A stretch of 64,000 nt of DNA, taken from assembly GCF_020037015.1 (NCBI RefSeq), contig NZ_JAIQDE010000003.1, positions 1-64,000 of the forward strand. The letters run 5' to 3'. The position numbers were made by a program, and so were the translations under genes. Positions 16,605-36,962 of this stretch are shown here, one piece after another. The notes under the pieces were generated by a model. The model saw nothing but the letters and a program-made list of their open reading frames with translations, was not told where the DNA came from and did no database searches. Origin of the DNA: Corallococcus sp. AS-1-6. Lineage in GTDB: Bacteria > Myxococcota > Myxococcia > Myxococcales > Myxococcaceae. Every line of letters begins with the position of its first letter. The first letter of the stretch is position 1.

Positions 16605-16608
<4 letters not shown>
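15430..16608 (-). CDS. Secreted FecR-domain protein
   Basis: This 392-residue protein has a cleavable signal peptide ending AGLAAEAES. Residues about 25-140 resemble a small OmpA-like or TPR-free alpha/beta domain. Residues about 150-290 form a FecR-type beta domain, with GQVTASTGEGQPTPRLAGDSL, LADGSVLLLSPRSAVRLG, and TRGAVAGVRGTRFRV as the typical TP-x-A-V-x-G-V-R-G-T-x-F motif. The last 90 residues look like a fibronectin-type fold ending IFSFDVAG. In such stand-alone secreted proteins FecR acts as a structural or binding domain, not as an anti-sigma factor. The start is GTG, overlapping the TGA of the giant gene (GTGA), and the stop is one base from the CHASE2 gene. Confidence 0.88.
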
Positions 16609-25370
<8,762 letters not shown>

Positions 25371-25784
25371 GGAGCTCCGTCGGTCCGGCGGCGGGGGTGT
25401 GCGGGAACCCGCTCCCGCCGTATGTCCTGGCGCTCGTGCGGGCGGGTTCAGGTGCTGGGGGAGCACCGAATCGGCGGTGGGCGGCGGTGGGGGCACGAAG
25501 CAATGCAAAGCAAGGCCAGGGCCAGGGCTGCCGGACGAGCACGGCCGAATTCTTTCGAGTGTTTGGAATAGGTGACGCGCTCGCACGGAGCGAGTTGTCC
25601 AGCTTGCGGATCCACTTTCCAGAATCCGGATCCGCCCCCACGCGAGTCCCGGTGCGTCACTCCGGGGCGCGGAGCAATCGCGCGCACGCGTGTGGCGGTG
25701 TCATGGCAAGGGTGACCCGGACACCGAGTGGATCCGCGCGATGCGCTTGTCAGGGGGAGGAAGGGCTGGCGACCGCGCGTCCTG
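25371..25784. other. Upstream region of the giant gene
   Basis: This 414-base stretch separates the giant gene from the receiver gene. It holds the first copy of a 36-bp repeat (25595-25630) and otherwise no convincing coding frame or hairpin. It should contain the promoter of the three-gene surface operon, but no clear -35/-10 or -24/-12 box was recognised. Confidence 0.5.
25595..25630 (-). repeat. 36-bp intergenic repeat, copy A
   Basis: 34 of 36 bases match the element at 26263-26298. Read on the minus strand it begins with the imperfect palindrome TCCGGATTCTGGA, followed by AAAGTGGATCCGCAAGC. Both copies lie upstream of minus-strand genes. A transcription-factor site or dispersed repeat are the main options. 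Confidence 0.75.
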
Positions 25785-26875: not shown

Positions 26876-26900
26876 CGGAAAAGCGCTACCCTGTCGCGGA

Positions 26901-28364
26901 ATGCCCGAGCCCGTGAAGGATGAAGCGCTGCACCTCCTGCTCGCGCGCGCGGATGACCGCCGGCCCGTGCTGGAGGACGGCCTCCCCGCGGACTCCACCC
27001 GGGATGCGCCCAGGCCCGCGCCGCTTCCCCGCCGCGCCGAGGGGATGACGCTGGAGCGCCCCGACGCGAACCCCAATGACCTGCCCGCGCAGCGCTGGGG
27101 TGTCATCGCGCCGCTGGGCGCGACGGGCGATGCCCTGCTTCGCGCCATCGAGCCGCTCCTCCAGCACCGCGAGCAGGAGCAGGGCGCGCCGGTGATGCGC
27201 TACCGCGTCCCTCCCGGCATGGACGCGGGCGCGGCGGTGCGCTGGAAGGAGACGGTGCACCGGGCCGAGGACGTCCCCGAGGAGGAGCGCCCCAGGTACC
27301 TGCTGTTGCTCGGGGACCTGCCCGACGTATCCATGGAGTTGCAGCACGTGCTCGCGCATGGCGCGTTCGTGGGGCGGCTTCACGTGGGGCTGCCCGACGG
27401 TGCACCGGACCTCGCGGGCTACACGTCCTATGCGGAGAAGGTGAGCGCGGCCGAGAGGCGGGGCGCGCCGCCGGAGGCCCCCGACATGCTCCTTTACACG
27501 GCGCGGGACGGGACGACGGCGACGAGCTCGGGCCACCAACTGCTGGTGGAGCCCTGCCGGCAGGTGATGGAGACGCGGTGGAAGCAGAAGCGGCCCGCGT
27601 TGAAGGTCCACGAGATTCCCTATGACTGGGCGGACCCCGACACGCTCCTGGAGGCCGCGGCCGGTGCGCGCTCGGCGGTGATGCTCACGGTGGCGCACGG
27701 GCTGGGGCGGCCCTCGAAGGGGTGGGCGTCTCCCCAGGAGCAGCGGGCGCTGCAGGGCGCGCTGACGCTGGGCGGAGGCCCGCCGCTCACGGGAGCGCTG
27801 CTGCGGGACACACCCTTCCTCCCTGGGGGCATGTGGTTCAGCGTGGCGTGCTTCGGCGCGGCGACCCCTCCGGACAGCGCGTTCCATGCATGGCTCGCGC
27901 AGCTCGCCGCGGCGGGCGGGTTCTCGGGGCGTCCTGACTCCGTGCTGCACAGCCTGCCCAGGGCAGGGGAGCGGCCCTTCGTGGCGGCGCTGCCCCAGGC
28001 CCTGCTGGCGAACCCGCGCGGCCCGCTGGGCATCATCGGCCACAGTGACCTCGCGTGGACGCTCGGGTTCCTGGACTCGGAGGACATGACGCGCGGCCGC
28101 GCGTCGCGTGTGCTCTCCGCGCTCCAGATTTTGTCCAATGGCAGCCGCGCGGGCGTCGCCCTGGACGCGTTGATGAGCGCGTACCGGGGAGTCAACGACG
28201 CGCTGCTGGCGGGCTACCGGGCGCGGCAGGACGCGCAGGTGTATGGCATTCCGGATCCGGTCGACCCGAAGCGACAGGGTTATCAGTGGATGCAGCGCAA
28301 TGACTTGCGCGGCTATGTGTTGCTTGGAGACCCCGCCGCGAGGCTTTCAGGGCAGCAGCCGTAG
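26901..28364 (+). CDS. Caspase-fold (CHAT/C25-like) protease-like protein
   Basis: The 487-residue product has no signal peptide. Its central part shows the strand pattern of caspase-fold peptidases: RYLLLLGDLPDV, SAVMLTVAHGLGR with a His at position 266, and MWFSVACFGAATP with a Cys at position 317. His-Gly and Cys-Phe-Gly after hydrophobic strands are the usual catalytic dyad context of clan CD. The C-terminal part contains LGIIGHSDLAW and ends YVLLGDPAARL, which recalls gingipain-like C25 and CHAT proteins. The ATG at 26901 was chosen because the upstream frame crosses the divergent promoter. The gene faces a CHAT/nSTAND locus and its last 18 bases overlap the WD40 gene. Peptidase activity and any target are inferred. 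Confidence 0.7.
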   Translation: MPEPVKDEALHLLLARADDRRPVLEDGLPADSTRDAPRPAPLPRRAEGMTLERPDANPNDLPAQRWGVIAPLGATGDALLRAIEPLLQHREQEQGAPVMRYRVPPGMDAGAAVRWKETVHRAEDVPEEERPRYLLLLGDLPDVSMELQHVLAHGAFVGRLHVGLPDGAPDLAGYTSYAEKVSAAERRGAPPEAPDMLLYTARDGTTATSSGHQLLVEPCRQVMETRWKQKRPALKVHEIPYDWADPDTLLEAAAGARSAVMLTVAHGLGRPSKGWASPQEQRALQGALTLGGGPPLTGALLRDTPFLPGGMWFSVACFGAATPPDSAFHAWLAQLAAAGGFSGRPDSVLHSLPRAGERPFVAALPQALLANPRGPLGIIGHSDLAWTLGFLDSEDMTRGRASRVLSALQILSNGSRAGVALDALMSAYRGVNDALLAGYRARQDAQVYGIPDPVDPKRQGYQWMQRNDLRGYVLLGDPAARLSGQQP

Positions 28365-31300
28365 CGCCGGGGGCGGCGTCACGCGCGGATCCCGTCCCTG
28401 GACCCGCTCACATTCCGCATAGGCGCTCCGTGCCTGCTCCTCGCTTTCGTCCAGGTAGCTGCGACGGACGTCCGGAGGAAGGCAGTCCTTGTTGACGGCC
28501 CGGAGCCGGCGCTGGAGCGCCGGAACGTCCAGGGGCCAGAGCTGCGCCTGTTCATCGAAGCAGACCGTCAGGACCTGCGGTCCGGTCGGATTGAACTCGG
28601 CGGAGGTGACTCCCCACTCACAGCCCTGGATCACCACGGGCAGTCCCGTTCCGTCCACCCTCCACACCCGCGCGGTCCTGTCGCTCGATGTCGTCACCAC
28701 CCAACGGCCATCCGGGCTGAAGCTGGCGGAGAGGACGTCCCCCCCATGCCCCTTGAGCACCACGGGAGTGCCCGTTCCGTCCGCCTTCCACACCCGCGCA
28801 CTCCTGTCCGCGGACGCTGTCACCACCCACTGGCCATCCCGGCTGAAGCGGGCGGAAGAGACGTCCCCCTCATGCCCCTTGAGCACCACGGGGGTGCCCG
28901 TTCCGTCCGCTTTCCACACCCGCGCGGTCGCGTCCGCGGACGCCGTCACCACCCACTGGCCATCGAGGCTGAACTCGGCCGAACGGATGTCCCCTCCATG
29001 GCCCACGAGCACCACGGGCGTGCCCGTCCCATCCGCCCTCAGCACCTTCAGGGTCCGGCCCGACGCGGTGACCACCCACTGACCGTCGCGGCTGAACCGG
29101 GCCAGGCGCGCCGGGTCGGACCCCAGTGCCCGCGATGTCCCGCTCCCGTCCGCCCTCCACACCCGGGGCACGCCTCCGTACTGGAGCGTGGTCAGCACCG
29201 ACTGACCCTCCGGACTGAACTCCGCCGAGGCGATGGGCTTGAGCAGCTCTCCCTTCAGCACCACCGGAGCGCCCGTTCCATCCGCTCGCCACACCCGCGC
29301 ATTCCCGTTCTCGGAGGTCGTCACCACCCAGCGGCCATCCGGGCTGAAGGCGGCCGACGAAACAGGGCCGTCGCGCCCGTCGAGCACGACAGGGGCTCCC
29401 GTCCCCTCCGTGCGCCAGACGCGCGCCGCTCCGTCGGCGCCCGCCGCGACGACGTGCTGTCCATCCGGGCTGAACGCCGCGGTCTGGATCCCGCCGGCCG
29501 TCCTGCCCGAGTCCTGGAACACAACGGGAAGCTCCGGCCCGCCTGCCTTCCAGACCCGGAGGGCGCCATCCGTGGACGCGGTGAGGATCCGCTGCCCGTC
29601 CGGGCTGAACCGCGCTTCCTCGACCGAGCCCTGGTGCCCCTTGAGCACCAGGGGCGCGCCTCTTCCATCCGCCCTCCGCACCCTCGCGGTCCTGTCCAGG
29701 GACGCGGTCACCACCCACTGGCCGTCCGGGCTGAACCCCGCGGACATGACGGGGTCCACATGCCCTCCGAGCACGACGGGCGTGCCCGTTCCATCCGCCT
29801 TCCACACCCGCGCCGTCTTGTCCGCCGAAGCCGTCACCACCCACAGGCCATCGGGGCTGAACGTGGCGGAGAACACGATCCCCTCATGTCCCTTGAGCAC
29901 CACGGGCGAGCCCTTCCCATCCGCCCGCCACACCCGCGCCGTCCTGTCCTCGGAAGCCGTCACCACCTATTGCCCATCCGGGCTGAACTCGGCCGAGGAG
30001 ACGGGCTTGGTGTGTCCCTTGAGCACGACGGGCGAGCCCTTCCCATCCGCCCGCCACACCCGCGCCGTCCCATCCCACGACGCGGTCACCACGCGCCGCC
30101 CGTCCGGACTGAAGCGCGCCGCCAGGACCGATGCCTCGTGCCCGGCGAGCCGTAGGGGCTCTCCGATTCCATCCGCCCGCCGCACCTGCGCGCTCATGTC
30201 CGCGGAAGCCGTCACCAGCCACTGGCCATCCGGACTGAAGGCCGCCGAGTGGACGGTGTCCTCGTACCCCCGGAGCACCCTGGGTTTGCCCGTCCCATCC
30301 GTCCGCCACACCCGGACGGTGGCGTCCTGGGACGCCGTGGCAACCCATTGCCCGTCCGGGCTGAACTCGATGGAGCTGATGAAGCCCAGATGGCCCTTCA
30401 GCGCCACGGGCGTGCCCGTCCCGTCCACGCGCCACACCCACGCCAGTCCCTCCGGCGAAGACGCCGCCACATGCTGGCCGTCCGGACTGAAGGCCGCGTG
30501 GTGCAGGGGGGCCGTTCCCTGGAACGTCACCTCCGGGAGGGGTTCCTTCAAGAAGTCATGCGCCAACTGCGTCCACCAGCGCGCCTGCTCGGGTTCGGGC
30601 ACTTCGAGCAGCAGCTTCGTGGCCATCGCGGTGTAGCCGCGGCCCTGCAGGTCGCGAGCCCCCGTCATCAACGCCAGTCCCCGCGCGTCTCGCGCCTGCT
30701 TGACGGCTTCCTGCTTCGCGCGCTCCGCGTCCTTCGTCGCCTGCTCCGCATGGCCCTGTTCCTTCAAGGCCCAGGCGAGCAGCAGGGTCATCAACACCGC
30801 CACGCCCGCCGCCACGGACGCCAGGACGATGAGCCTGCGCCGCTCGGCCGCTTCACGCCGGCGCTGTCGCTGCGCGGACTCCCGCTCGATGCGCTGCTGC
30901 TTGAGCTCGAAGACCTTGCGCGCGAGCCAGTCGTGTCCCAGCTCGAAGTACCGGCTGCCCTGGTGCTGCTCCGCGTGCAGCACCGCCGCCGCCTCCAGGT
31001 GTGTCAGCACCTCGTCCGCGTGCTCGGGTGGCAGCTCGGCGCGAGCCTCCTGCTCCGTCAGCAGGGTCCGGCTGCCGTCGCTCGCGATGAGGTGCTGCTC
31101 CAGCAACCGGCGCGCCGCCCGCTTCTTGTCGGAGCCGAGCGCGTCCAGCGTCGCCTCCAGGTAGCGGTGCACCATCGGCTCCGCGGCGACAGGCTCCACG
31201 GCCTGGCCCCGCGCCCGCTCGTCCCACAGCGCCCGGCAGACGATCTGCGCGAACGCGGCCTGCACCTCGGCGTCATCGTCCTGTTCGCCCTGGCCCGCCA

Positions 31301-32003
31301 TGCGCACCTGCCGCATCAGCGCGCGCACCTCCTGCTCGGACCAGGGCTGCGAGGGCAGGCCCTTCTCGGTGGCCAGCCGGCACGACACCTTCACCATCTC
31401 GCCCACGGTGAGCGGCCCCAGCCGGAAGCCCTGCTCCAGCAGCTCGCGCCGGCCCCGCACGCGGTCCCGGAAGCGCCCCAGGTAGTCCTCGCGCATCGCC
31501 AGCACGAGCTGCAGCCCGCGCACCGGCTTGCGCGCCAGCGCGTCCAGCCCCTTCAGCAGCGCGCCCGTGGCCTCGATGTCGCGCCCCGGCAGGAAGAGCT
31601 GCTCCAACTGGTCCAGGTAGATGAGGACCGGCCGGTCGGAGCGCTGCGACGCGAGCTCCAGCGCCGCGTCCAGCGCCTGCGCCGTCCCCGCCTGCTCCGG
31701 CGGCGGCCCCAGCTCCAGCTCCGCGTGCATCGTGCGCACGAGCCGCGCCAGCGGAGCCTCCCCCGCGAGCCACCCGTCGATGCGCACCGTGCGGAACTCG
31801 TGCGCCTCCTCCAGCAGCGGAATCACGCCGGCCTGCATCACCGACGACTTCCCCGCGCCGGACGGACCGAAGAGGGTGAGGCACGGGTGCGCGAGGATGC
31901 GGTTCACCAGCCGCTGGGTCACGGTCTCGCGGCCGAAGAAGCGCTCGCGGTCCGCCGCGCGGTAGGGCTGCGGACCGAGGAAGGGGTTCACCGGGCTGCT
32001 CAT
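28347..32003 (-). pseudogene. nSTAND ATPase with WD40 repeats, interrupted by an amber codon
   Basis: The frame from ATG 32003 would encode 1,218 residues but has one TAG at 29967-29969 (codon 679), exactly where the repeat motif DGQWVVTAS has Trp in other repeats. A single G-to-A change from TGG explains it, and reading is open on both sides in the same frame. Order: NPFLGPQPY...FFGRE and Walker A GPSGAGKSS (about 46-54), Walker B VLIYLDQLEQLF (about 133), helical region, one membrane helix (about 395-415), then 16 WD40-type repeats, five before and eleven after the stop. STAND ATPases act as oligomerising signal switches. The start overlaps the CHAT gene stop by four bases. It could be a true null allele, a read-through site or a sequence error. 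Confidence 0.88.
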
Positions 32004-34039
32004 CGCGAACCTCCCGGCGTCCCCGTGCCGAGGGACCCGGCCACGGCGTCCGCATCCGCCTGCACCACCTGGATGCCCGCGCCCGCGGGCAGGCCCCGGC
32101 CCGACCTCCACGACTCCGCCTCATGCACCCCGGGCTCCAGCAGCACCAGGCTCTTGCGAGGGAGCGGCCGGCGTCCGAACAGCCGCGACAGCAGCATGCG
32201 GTGGTGCCACGCCAGCAATGACAGTCCGACGAGCAGCGCGGGCCGGCTGTCCAGGGTCCCCAGGATGGCGTCCGCCAGGTCCGGCGGGAGGACGGACTCC
32301 AGGTCCCGCACGCCGTGCAGGTAGTCGTCCTCCGTGAGCAGGGGCGTTTCGAAGACGCGGTCCGGCAGGTAGCCCCGGTACAGCCTCACCAGCGCCACGT
32401 CGCGCGACGGATCGAAGTCCAGGGGCAGCGCGTCGAGCGGCTCCCAGCCCTGGCCCGGCAGGCGCCGCCGGATCAGCGCGGAGCCCTCGTCGGGCGACGA
32501 GGGCTGGATGACATACAGCGGCAGCTCCGGCCGGTGCCGCGCGAGCGCCTGTTCCAGCACGGGCATGCGCAGCAGCGTGATGTGCACGCCGGGCCCCAGC
32601 CGCCGCGCGAGCGCCTCCACCAGCGGCAGCGTGGGCGTCGCATCCCGGAACACCTCCTGGAAGTGCGAGTCCAGCGTCTTGGGGCCGAAGCGCAGCGTGA
32701 ACCGCTGCGCCAGCGCGCTCATCGGCAGGGCGTCCGGCACGGCCCACGGCGTGCCCCGCATCCGGCCGTGCAGGAGCTCCCGGAGGTCCTCGTCCGTGGT
32801 GCCTCCGTGGTCGCCCAGCACCAGGGAGAAGGGACGTGAGACCAGGTCCATCAACCCGCGCAGGGACGGATCCTCTCCGCGCACCGGTTCGGCCTGCACG
32901 GGGGCGCGGGGCGCGGGCTTCGCGCGAGCGGGGCGGAAGGAGAAGAGGGTGGTGTCACTGCCACGCAGGTACAGCACGGGGGAGAAGGCCTCGGCGCTCT
33001 CGCTGAACTCCGTCAGCACCGTGCTGCGCGCGTCGTGGAGGCAGCGGGCCACGTCGCCCCGGTGCCGGGTGTCCCCCACCAACGCGCGGTAGAAGGCCCG
33101 CGAGCACGCGCGCGCCACGTCTGTCTTCACCGGCCACAGGTGCGCCACCACCGCGTCCGCGCCGCCCTGCGCGAGCAGCTCCGCCGCGCTCGTCAGCGTC
33201 CCCGGTTGAGCGCCCTGACAGGCTTCGAGCACCACCAGTCGCAGGTCGCCCCGGAAGGCTCCCGCCAGCTCCTTCGCCAGCAGCTCCACGGGAAGCCCCG
33301 CGGACGCGCCGTCCGCGTCCGTGAGTTGCAGGACCGGGGCTCCCCGCGCGTCCACGCCGCCATGCCCGATGAAGTGCAGGATGTGCGGCGAGGGCTCCGA
33401 GCGGAGCCGGTCGATGACGTAGTCGCGCCGCGAGCGGGGCCCCACGAGCGGCTGCATCCACTCCAGCGCCCCGGAGTCGATGGCCGGCTGGAGCATGGCG
33501 CGCAGGCGGTCCGGTGCCTCTTCGTCCAGCGGCGAGACGACGAGCAGCCGCACGGCCCCGGTGACCTCGCGAGGAAGCCAGGGCTTCGTGGACTGCACCC
33601 CGCGCACGATGCACAGCTCCGGCGAGATGCCGAGGAAGTCGAGCGGCCCGGACTGTCCACAGAGCGCCTCCCAGGGAAGCGCCTGGAGCTCCCGGTCCCG
33701 AGGCAGGAGCCGCAGCAGCAGCGGCCTCTGGCTCCCGGTGTTGCGCGACACGCCGCGCAGCTCGAGCAGCACCTCCTGGAGCCCCTCGCGGAAGAGGGCG
33801 GAGTGCAGCGCCCGCGCCTGCTCGGGAGACTCCAGGGGCACCCCGCGCACGGCCGCGTCCCGCACCCACTCGCCAAAGCGGAGGAGGGCTTCGCGCGAGT
33901 GCCCCAACCTGTGGGGCGCGGGCTGTTGGCCGCCGCTGCCCCGCGCCGTGGCGCTGACCTCATCGCCCGCCAGCGCGAGGTCGACCTCCAGCCAGAATGC
34001 GGGCGCCGCTGTTCCGCTCGTGCTCATTTGACCCGACAT
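32000..34039 (-). CDS. CHAT-domain protease with SIR2-like C-terminal part
   Basis: The 679-residue protein has an N-terminal beta-rich domain (about 14-110). A CHAT caspase-like domain (about 115-350) follows, with the His-Cys dyad His226 in HFIGHGGVD and Cys274 in LEACQGAQPG, and ADAVVAHLWPVK downstream. The last 270 residues resemble SIR2-type domains at their end (LLVGLSLLAWHHRMLLSRLFG, then SLVLLEP). The expected Gly-Ala-Gly-Ala NAD loop is replaced by FSLVLGDHGGTT, so NAD hydrolysis is uncertain. Its stop overlaps the STAND gene start (ATGA), so protease and ATPase should be made together; CHAT proteins often act with STAND or WD40 partners in programmed cell death or defence. ATG at 34027 is a second possible start. 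Confidence 0.85.
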   Translation of the reverse strand: MSGQMSTSGTAAPAFWLEVDLALAGDEVSATARGSGGQQPAPHRLGHSREALLRFGEWVRDAAVRGVPLESPEQARALHSALFREGLQEVLLELRGVSRNTGSQRPLLLRLLPRDRELQALPWEALCGQSGPLDFLGISPELCIVRGVQSTKPWLPREVTGAVRLLVVSPLDEEAPDRLRAMLQPAIDSGALEWMQPLVGPRSRRDYVIDRLRSEPSPHILHFIGHGGVDARGAPVLQLTDADGASAGLPVELLAKELAGAFRGDLRLVVLEACQGAQPGTLTSAAELLAQGGADAVVAHLWPVKTDVARACSRAFYRALVGDTRHRGDVARCLHDARSTVLTEFSESAEAFSPVLYLRGSDTTLFSFRPARAKPAPRAPVQAEPVRGEDPSLRGLMDLVSRPFSLVLGDHGGTTDEDLRELLHGRMRGTPWAVPDALPMSALAQRFTLRFGPKTLDSHFQEVFRDATPTLPLVEALARRLGPGVHITLLRMPVLEQALARHRPELPLYVIQPSSPDEGSALIRRRLPGQGWEPLDALPLDFDPSRDVALVRLYRGYLPDRVFETPLLTEDDYLHGVRDLESVLPPDLADAILGTLDSRPALLVGLSLLAWHHRMLLSRLFGRRPLPRKSLVLLEPGVHEAESWRSGRGLPAGAGIQVVQADADAVAGSLGTGTPGGSR

Positions 34040-34069: not shown

Positions 34070-34717
34070 CTACACCTGGGGCCTCCACCAGAGTCCCTTC
34101 AGTCCTGCCTGTTCACAGGCATGGCGGGCCTCCTCCGTGAAGCAGTAGAACGCCAGTTCGGGAACTGCGAACACAGGAGGAAAGCCTCCCGGCGGTGTCT
34201 TGAGCACGAGGGGCCGGGCTTTCTCCTTGCCCAGAAGTCCCGCGCCGGTTTGGTGGAAGGGCACGCCCTTGACGAGGGTCCGTTCCCGGTCGAGGCAGTC
34301 GGTTTCTTCCAGCAATTGGAGGATGACAAAGCCCTCGTTCTTCAGTGTGGGGTCTTGTACCGGGTACCAGGTCCGCTGCCGGGTGAACCGATCACGCACC
34401 AGGTGCTTGATGCGTTCCGCGTAGATGACCGTGGGGATGAGCCGGTGATGGAATGGCCCCACGGATTCGAGCACGCGCACCATGCGCCGGGAGATCAGCA
34501 GCAGCCCCCGGGGCGCGGTGAACAGGTGGTCGAGCCGAGCGGCGTTCTCCAGGTTGCCAACGAACTCGATGATCTCAGGAGCGCCGCGTTCCCTTTGGTA
34601 GTCGACGCCGGGCTTGTGGAACGTCACGGACTCGAAGCCGTCGAACTCAATGCTGACGGCGTCGAAGACATCTTCTTCCTCGATGTGCGAGATGTCGGCC
34701 GTCAGTGCGTACATCAT
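34070..34717 (-). CDS. Candidate immunity protein of the AHH toxin
   Basis: The 215-residue cytoplasmic-looking protein starts in a four-base overlap with the toxin stop (ATGA), the usual layout of toxin and cognate immunity genes. Its C-terminal YCFTEEARHACEQAGLKGLWW resembles the end of imm11-type immunity proteins often found beside AHH nucleases in myxobacteria; this is a judgement from memory of that family. It has no membrane segment, which fits protection against a nuclease acting in the cytoplasm. The region uses A and T more freely than its neighbours, as toxin/immunity loci often do. The next gene, encoding the CHAT protease, begins 30 bases later on the same strand. Confidence 0.65.
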   Translation of the reverse strand: MMYALTADISHIEEEDVFDAVSIEFDGFESVTFHKPGVDYQRERGAPEIIEFVGNLENAARLDHLFTAPRGLLLISRRMVRVLESVGPFHHRLIPTVIYAERIKHLVRDRFTRQRTWYPVQDPTLKNEGFVILQLLEETDCLDRERTLVKGVPFHQTGAGLLGKEKARPLVLKTPPGGFPPVFAVPELAFYCFTEEARHACEQAGLKGLWWRPQV

Positions 34718-36708
34718 GCCGTGCGTGAGTCCTCGTGGGCGGGGAGTTCCAGCAGCGCTAGCTTGACTCCTACGACGATGCCATCCTCGCGCAACTCCTT
34801 GAGGACGTCCACAGGGAGGTTGCCAGTCTCAATGGCCTCACGAAGGTTTAATTCGATCTCGAGAATCGCATCTTCGATTTCACGGGGCGTCAGGCTGGAG
34901 CCAGGCTTGCGCTTGCCCAAGGAGTCATCCAGCGCTTCCAGTGCATCATCGAGCAGCGTGGTGACGTAGCTGTTGTATTTGGGATGGCTGCCCAGGTGCA
35001 TGATCTTTCCCTGCGGATCCTTGCAAGGCATGTCGAGGATGTTCGTTCCTCGGTCGAGGGTGTAGCTTTCTAGCCGCTCCATGGCCTTGCGGATCATCGG
35101 ATGCTTCTGGGCGACCGCATCCGGAATCAGGTGGTGCATGGGATTGCCGCGAGCGATGCGTATCTCCGCTGCCTTCCGGGCTGCCTTGCCGTGGGTCTTC
35201 TCCACCCAGTCCAGGTAGTTCTTCCGGTAGCGGCTGAAAATGCTGATGCGGGGCGTCCCCTTGCCGATCTTGAGCACGACCAGTCCGTTCTCGGTGACTG
35301 TGAGCGCTCCGTACTCGTCGCTCAGGGCCTTCCCGTCCGGGCGACGAATGCGATAGGGCTGGGAGCCGTTGTTCATCTTCTCCAGGCGATAGCCGGCTGT
35401 CTCCAGCTCCTTCTTGAATGTGTTGAACGCGGGCGTTCCTTCCTTCGGAACCTTTCGTCCGACGAGTTCCTTGAGCTTGTCCCAGTTGGGAAGCGTCTCC
35501 AGGAGCCTTTCCCATTCGGCGTCACTGACCGTGCGCTCGGTCAGGGTGGGTTCGGTGTCCGGCCTGGAGGACGCGCCGTCCTTGACGGCCTTCGACATCA
35601 GGGGCCTGCCGGCTCCCCACGGATTGAAGGGCAGGGACACAGAATGAGAGGTGATCGAGCCCGGCTGGAATACAGGGACGCCGGCAAAGGCGCCGCCGGG
35701 ACCTTGCGCCGCCATCATGTAGAAGCGGGGTGGGTTGATTTTCACGGTTCTCGCCAGCTTGACCCCTCGTCCCAGGTTGGTCTTCGCGCCCATCGCCGCA
35801 AGCGCTGCTGCGGCGATGCTCATCAGCATCCGGAGGAAGGATTTGCTGGCCTCCTTGAGCCGCTCCGCGGAACCGTTGGCCTCCCAGGCCTGGGTGATCC
35901 ATGAACTGGCATGTTTCAGGGCCTCCACCCCTGCGTCGATGATTCCCTGAGCGCCAAACGCCGCCAGCCCCAGTTGGATGATCGCCGCAGCGAGTTGGCC
36001 GACCCCCGTGGGCGTCGCCGCGAGGACGGTGGAGAGCGCCTCCGCGGCGATGAACCCCGCGACGATGGCACTGATCTCCAACAGATTGTCCTTGATGGCC
36101 TGGGCGTACTGCCCGGTGACCTCTCCGAAGTGCTGTCCTGACTGGTCGACGGAGATGATCAGATCCTCCAGGTGCCGGGCAGCCTCGCGCGCCCGCGCAA
36201 GCGCGCCGCCGGTGATGGACCCGCTCGGCACTTCTTCTTGGAGGCGGTTGGCGTATGCGGTGCTGACAAGCCAGATGCGCTTCCCGGCGACAAGCTCCAC
36301 GCCGTTCTTGCCACGCCGGACGCCCATCCGGCCGCGCTCCTTGTTCACGTGAAGGATGACGTTTTCGTAGAATCGCAAATCGCGTCCCGGCGCAATGGCC
36401 TCCTTGTAGAGACGCGCTACGATAGGCTCCAGACGGTCTCCCGGCTTGACCTGATAGAGGGTCGCAGCGGGTTCCGGCGGATCGAGCGTGATGCGGAAGT
36501 CTTGTATCTGCCCACGCAAGAGATATCCCCCCACCAGGGTCGATACGTAATACCAGCCGGGCGCCTGGGAATGACCTTGGAGCACCGTCACCCGTGTGCC
36601 TGGCGGTAGCGGGGACGGTGTCAGGCAGGTCGAGCCCTTGACTCCCGCAGGAAGCGTTCGAAGATTGGCTCCTTCACTGTTGTCGATGAAGCCGAACCTG
36701 ATCGTCAC
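34714..36708 (-). CDS. Polymorphic toxin with SH3b, LysM and AHH nuclease domains
   Basis: The 664-residue protein begins with an SH3b-like domain (about 11-70) and a LysM-like stretch YQVKPGDRLEPIVARLYKE (about 85-125), both wall-binding. A hydrophobic region follows (about 180-260, IVAGFIAAEALSTVLAATP) that may form membrane helices. The C-terminal 150 residues hold a GNPMHHLIPDAV motif with His525-His526, then LGSHPKYNSYV, typical of AHH (HNH/endonuclease VII fold) nuclease toxins. The start is GTG at 36708, preceded by a strong GGGAGGGG; an upstream in-frame start at 36780 lacks one. No signal peptide is seen, so export by a dedicated system is likely. The gene directly precedes its immunity candidate. 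DNA or RNA cleavage in competitors is inferred. Confidence 0.85.
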   Translation of the reverse strand: MTIRFGFIDNSEGANLRTLPAGVKGSTCLTPSPLPPGTRVTVLQGHSQAPGWYYVSTLVGGYLLRGQIQDFRITLDPPEPAATLYQVKPGDRLEPIVARLYKEAIAPGRDLRFYENVILHVNKERGRMGVRRGKNGVELVAGKRIWLVSTAYANRLQEEVPSGSITGGALARAREAARHLEDLIISVDQSGQHFGEVTGQYAQAIKDNLLEISAIVAGFIAAEALSTVLAATPTGVGQLAAAIIQLGLAAFGAQGIIDAGVEALKHASSWITQAWEANGSAERLKEASKSFLRMLMSIAAAALAAMGAKTNLGRGVKLARTVKINPPRFYMMAAQGPGGAFAGVPVFQPGSITSHSVSLPFNPWGAGRPLMSKAVKDGASSRPDTEPTLTERTVSDAEWERLLETLPNWDKLKELVGRKVPKEGTPAFNTFKKELETAGYRLEKMNNGSQPYRIRRPDGKALSDEYGALTVTENGLVVLKIGKGTPRISIFSRYRKNYLDWVEKTHGKAARKAAEIRIARGNPMHHLIPDAVAQKHPMIRKAMERLESYTLDRGTNILDMPCKDPQGKIMHLGSHPKYNSYVTTLLDDALEALDDSLGKRKPGSSLTPREIEDAILEIELNLREAIETGNLPVDVLKELREDGIVVGVKLALLELPAHEDSRTA

Positions 36709-36962
36709 GGTCCCCTCCCGTCGAGCAGTCGGCGAAGGAGGGAATGACAGACACACCCGTGGTTCCCCAGCGGGCAACATCCCTTCATACGGGCCGTCGT
36801 GGCTCGGATTTGAGAGGATTCATGGCTCCGCACCTCAAGTGAAGGACCGTGCGGGTGGGTGACCCTTGCCGCGTTGGACCCGCCCTCAGCTTCGGTCTGA
36901 CGGGGGCCAGCAGGAGCCATGGGTGTGCACTCCGCGCCCGGCCACGGCTCCCGCAGAAGCGG

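Follow-up and report, generated by a model that had tools for sequence, protein, structure and literature searches.

A private in-frame stop codon in a putative NLR-like receptor gene of Corallococcus sp. AS-1-6, and the evolution of its WD40 repeats

The locus and the predicted receptor

The stretch of DNA analysed here (hereafter the window) comprises 64,000 nucleotides of contig NZ_JAIQDE010000003.1 of the soil bacterium Corallococcus sp. AS-1-6. Its minus strand carries a gene, interrupted in this genome, whose product would consist of an nSTAND1 NTPase domain, a putative membrane helix, a series of WD40 repeats and a conserved tail of approximately 60 residues, in that order (Table 1). 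The NTPase domain contains the Walker A motif GPSGAGKSS, which is retained in all seven genomes that carry the gene, this one and six relatives within the genus. The gene thus pairs a STAND NTPase domain with P-loop with C-terminal superstructure-forming repeats, of which there are 16, modelled as two propellers. An initial annotation had proposed that the protein would have 16 repeats were it not interrupted; this was borne out, the same number being found at identical spacing in 7/7 genomes.

Table 1. Coordinates of the nSTAND1-WD40 gene, its features and its neighbours within the window
Feature	Position	Strand	Details
Possible gingipain-like (C25) cysteine peptidase gene, convergent	26892..28364	plus	AHG and AC motifs; ~490 codons
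nSTAND1-TM-WD40 gene, interrupted here	28347..32003	minus	about 1218 codons if uninterrupted
16 WD40 repeats	28506..30527	minus	two propellers in the orthologue-based model, blades 1-8 and 9-16
WD40 repeat 5, stop-bearing	29898..30023	minus	among the repeats homogenising within the gene, by repeat comparison
43-nt exact direct repeat, copy 2	29902..29944	minus	downstream of the stop; 126 nt (one unit) from copy 1
In-frame amber codon (TAG)	29967..29969	minus	within WD40 repeat 5; 679th codon of the nSTAND1-WD40 frame
43-nt exact direct repeat, copy 1	30028..30070	minus	upstream of the stop
Hydrophobic segment, probable membrane helix	30765..30833	minus	residues 391-413; judged from translation alone
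nSTAND1 NTPase domain (PF20703)	30855..31985	minus	residues 7-383; Pfam E 1.5e-36
CHAT (caspase-like) protease gene, intact	32000..34039	minus	motifs HFIGHGG and VVLEACQG

A structure model was built from the orthologue of one relative (G004) with the five others, and has a mean pLDDT of 82.6 and a pTM of 0.53. The first predicted propeller (model residues 9-342) matches eight-bladed WD40 structures at Z 40-46, and the second is made up of blades 9-16. Both propellers of the model can be aligned with full-length Apaf-1 and with the 14-blade Nostoc protein 2ymu, at a large rmsd, probably because the propellers are oriented differently to each other. Searches against NCBIfam returned only propeller matches below the cut-off, and PADLOC gave only a weak SAVED_CHAT match along with unrelated models.

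Directly upstream lies the CHAT gene, which is 91-95% identical in the six relatives that carry orthologues of the nSTAND1-WD40 gene and retains the catalytic-type motifs HFIGHGG and VVLEAC in all seven genomes. In each of the seven, the ATG of the nSTAND1-WD40 gene overlaps the CHAT stop codon (ATGA) and is preceded by GGAGG. Of 16 Corallococcus genomes, seven carry both genes and nine carry neither. A sequence search of the PDB with the CHAT protein found no match.

On the opposite strand, the 3' tail of the convergent gene, which is conserved and whose AHG and AC motifs are of the caspase/gingipain type, overlaps the 3' end of the nSTAND1-WD40 gene. All six members of this second family that were tested match the C25 peptidase model, albeit weakly (E 0.0026 for the window copy and 5e-4 at best), and the window copy scores 17.5 bits, below the curated cut-off of 23; the structure prediction for its 490 residues was of low confidence (pLDDT 39). 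Relatives of the convergent gene, at 37-50% identity, occur elsewhere in the genus. One of these adjoins an intact WD40 frame of 1970 codons at a paralogous locus of the same genome (contig C54, about 267400-272700). Further features were noted on the minus strand of the window. Upstream of the CHAT gene, positions 34070-36780 hold an AHH-nuclease toxin-like gene followed by a small possible immunity gene, a pair which sits in a stretch of lower GC (0.62). Among the six relatives it is found beside the locus only in G004, and there the toxin gene matches in parts only. Positions 16605-25586 encode a surface-type protein of 2993 codons which, judging from its translation, contains numerous similar repeats of Ig-like type, repeats of calcium-binding type and a C-terminus resembling OmpA.

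The amber codon and its origin

The initial annotation had reported a single TAG at 29967-29969 as the only break in a frame that is open for 678 codons ahead of it and for 539 beyond. Translation of the frame confirms each of these points: the minus strand from 29978 to 29958 reads GAT GGG CAA TAG GTG GTG ACG, the next codon is GCT, and the TAG is the sole internal stop of the frame, which starts at the ATG at 32003 and has its terminal stop at 28347. In a profile search, the TAG-spanning repeat scores 42.7 bits against a WD40 cut-off of 27, and the frame, when read through, can be aligned from end to end with six uninterrupted orthologues; on grounds of homology it is not a chance frame.

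Among the relatives found in a second collection, those bearing species names include C. carmarthensis, C. llansteffanensis and C. sicarius. The six Corallococcus orthologues, of 1215-1220 amino acids, are 87-92% identical to the interrupted frame before the TAG site and 70-79% identical after it. As all six are whole, the stop is private to the genome of Corallococcus sp. AS-1-6, and the inactivating lesion is absent from its orthologues, as is looked for in a pseudogene. At the site itself, five of the six have TGG and one has CAG, and the flanking codons GGG CAA agree with three of the TGG genomes. On these grounds TGG is likely to have been the ancestral codon, as had been proposed from the other repeats. 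In three further myxobacterial WD40 genes (G011, G054 and G022), candidate in-frame stops proved to be the natural ends of the genes, so that no recurrence was found.

Three explanations had been put forward for the TAG: sequence error, read-through of the stop and a recent null mutation. With regard to the first, it is unlikely that the TAG is a consensus base-call error, or else a mutation that arose in culture, and that the gene is whole in the wild. Such an origin would suit a single isolated transition with no other decay, and for fungal WD40 repeats of very high identity, assembly from Illumina data is known to be unreliable and to fail (PMC12222747). However, the longest exact repeat in this gene is 43 nt, the closest repeat is only about 79-83% identical, and a search of the genome found no second copy approaching the gene. 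The repeats are thus too diverged for short-read collapse to be likely, and collapse or mis-assembly was rejected as the main cause. The 8-mer across the TAG is, moreover, unique within the window. Within the approximately 38 kb of the window that could be compared with three relatives (G004, G006 and G010), conserved genes are intact and only the nSTAND1-WD40 gene has an internal stop, the other flagged stops having been sorted by eye into shadow frames and frame ends. The suggestion of error stands in part: neither noise in the assembly at large nor collapse of repeats is a likely source, whereas a single miscalled base or a mutation in culture could account for the TAG.

Programmed or suppressor-mediated read-through, giving some full-length protein, would be consistent with a frame that is open on both sides of the stop and a downstream part that has not decayed. 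We nevertheless consider it very improbable, and this part of the initial annotation is not upheld. A programmed stop would be expected to be conserved, yet it is present in 0/6 relatives. Of the 21 conserved genes considered in the window, four end in TAG, which is thus an ordinary stop here. No amber-suppressor tRNA with a CTA anticodon was found among 12 pattern hits checked with ARAGORN, a search that covers tRNAs fitting the pattern; the tRNAs among these hits were ordinary ones for Leu, Gln, Glu and Lys. There is accordingly no sign in the window or among these tRNAs that TAG is reassigned or suppressed.

The third explanation, a recent null mutation, is favoured by the private stop and the whole orthologues, and by the evolution of the sequence downstream. 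Private codon changes after the stop comprise 7 synonymous and 6 non-synonymous, compared with 75:43 on the other six branches (Fisher p 0.55), and there is no second lesion. As the changes do not differ from those on other branches and no further lesion has accumulated, the stop appears to be recent. Neutrality over the whole branch is disfavoured by a likelihood ratio of only 3, in a test of little power, and function may have been lost some way back along the branch, for example at its midpoint.

The truncated product would hold four whole repeats and the beginning of the fifth. This differs in one detail from the initial annotation, which counted five remaining repeats. The stop falls at model residue 200, within blade 5 of the first propeller, and would remove most of that blade together with blades 6-16 and the conserved helical tail; with these gone, neither propeller could close and there would be no working sensor. 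A gene that is split or shortened and still working seems rather improbable. In such a case an nSTAND protein with four and a half blades might act without a sensor, or re-initiation at a GTG might yield a C-terminal part of 539 residues that reassembles with the first. A GTG does lie directly 3' of the TAG, the downstream part has no excess of amino-acid changes, and repetitive blades are described as yielding many fold topologies at varying copy number (Afanasieva et al. 2019, as cited in PMC9218822). Unlike the true start, however, this GTG has no GGAGG-type ribosome site before it, and each of the seven genomes has kept 16 repeats, which speaks for a requirement for the complete array.

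Taken with the evidence above, a recent nonsense mutation has probably inactivated an NLR-like receptor gene in Corallococcus sp. AS-1-6. The whole protein, by analogy of architecture, would work like Apaf-1 or a fungal NLR: the two eight-bladed propellers may sense a ligand, upon which the nSTAND1 NTPase would switch and oligomerise at the membrane. The translationally coupled CHAT protease, whose gene co-occurs with that of the receptor and overlaps it, is the candidate effector that would be activated. The truncated product would presumably be inert. Against a simple null, truncated STAND proteins can be hyperactive, as is Apaf-1 without its WD40 part.

Repeat exchange and diversification

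For repeats 5, 6, 13 and 14, the closest match is often another repeat of the same gene and not the orthologous repeat of another genome. In one orthologue (G002, L071), repeats 3 and 5 share an identical stretch of 126 nt, which is a recent exchange within that gene. Both observations indicate that repeats are exchanged within the gene, and the concerted evolution of WD40 repeats that marks the fungal HNWD genes is thus found here also. The stop lies in one of the exchanging repeats, repeat 5, and is flanked by the two copies of the 43-nt direct repeat; recombination there could in principle remove or replace the repeat. A search for long exact donor tracts immediately surrounding the amber codon found none.

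In the het-d and het-e genes of fungi, strong positive selection acts on unit positions 7, 9, 25 and 27, which flank the conserved positions 8 and 26 (PMC1805685). The fungal positions come from a source independent of our data, and the variability profile of the bacterial repeats had been viewed before they were read. We take them to correspond to positions -6, -4, +12 and +14 relative to FSPDG in the repeats studied here, in a register set by the fungal consensus; the register agrees with a conserved V at -5 and a conserved D at +13. Across the window gene and its orthologues (L067-L072), dN/dS at these four positions is 1.38 as compared with 0.36-0.38 elsewhere. Among 111,930 sets of four positions, no more than 3 reach the score of the set homologous to the fungal one (rank p 2.7e-5). 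The signal persists when G002 is left out, when the exchanging repeats are left out, and when only the three closest genomes are used (p 6e-5 to 1.3e-4). It is absent from the paralogous C54 family of WD40 genes in the same genus (dN/dS 0.16 vs 0.30), in which only eight repeats could be anchored. By counting, then, the positions diversified in the fungal genes appear to be under diversifying selection here as well. However, this finding should be taken as a strong lead and not as a finished test of selection, as dN/dS was obtained by counting, outside any codon model, and such methods ignore recombination.

It is tempting, if speculative, to propose that this gene encodes a bacterial recognition receptor, directed against phage or non-kin, whose two propellers are diversified by repeat exchange and by selection at the surface positions that vary in fungal allorecognition receptors. 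On this view the stop represents a null allele in a population in which such receptors are repeatedly switched off and regained, and an exchange of repeats, or recombination involving the 43-nt copies on either side of the stop, could bring about the regain. As matters stand this is a minority view among the possibilities we entertain.

Comparison with known systems

The stop fits a known pattern of disrupted STAND-WD40 propeller genes and is ordinary by itself. Bacterial WD40 propellers linked to STAND domains are disrupted by frameshifts and in-frame stops, which Dunin-Horkawicz et al. (2014; cited in PMC9218822) take as a sign of rapid turnover of immune genes. These WRAP-type genes share with the present gene a STAND NTPase with a C-terminal double WD40 propeller and coupling to another conflict gene. 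They differ in that the partner there is TIR-STAND, while here an nSTAND1 type is joined to a CHAT gene; furthermore, the repeats are less identical here, the number of blades is fixed at 16 across orthologues, and the stop is single and private.

A closer likeness in the mode of evolution is found in the het-d/het-e/NWD genes of fungi, which also combine a STAND NTPase with WD40 propellers, concerted repeats and variability at positions 7, 9, 25 and 27. Inactive het-d and het-e alleles are frequent in Podospora, and one member of the family bears, in a single strain, one stop at the start of the seventh WD40 repeat, other strains being apparently free of stops in that gene (PMC1805685; PMC12222747); null alleles and a lone stop within a WD40 repeat are thus known there. 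The fungal genes, however, encode a NACHT NTPase and a HET effector, in place of which there is nSTAND1 and a separate CHAT gene. Neither NACHT nor HET was among the best 25 Pfam matches listed, the main ones being to nSTAND1 and WD40, and repeat number varies in the fungal genes while it is constant in the seven genomes considered here. On these grounds the Corallococcus gene lies outside the fungal family, yet it seems to evolve in a similar manner, and the likeness observed is one of gene evolution.

In the nSTAND1/CHAT conflict systems of multicellular bacteria (PMC8195603; PMC10907252) the same domains are joined to a rapidly diversified sensor. In those systems, lectin-like domains are diversified by diversity-generating retroelements, whereas here the sensor consists of WD40 repeats subject to homogenisation between repeats.

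Apaf-1 likewise has a STAND NTPase followed by two WD40 propellers and a link to a caspase-type protease, and its structures 3shf and 3sfz match across both propellers of our model (Z about 31, 14 A rmsd). The propellers of Apaf-1 have 7 and 8 blades. Apaf-1 carries a CARD, where the Corallococcus protein would have a membrane segment and its protease as a neighbouring CHAT protein. The gene appears to be the bacterial equivalent of NLR-type recognition receptors, and the main interest of the locus lies with the receptor: in a multicellular bacterium, an Apaf-1-like protein is here paired with a protease of caspase-like type. The surface of its propellers appears to evolve at the same four positions as those of het-d and het-e, which the C54 paralogue of the same genus does not; if confirmed, this would mean that receptor diversification has evolved in parallel in bacteria and fungi, in a genus that can be cultured and so lends itself to testing.
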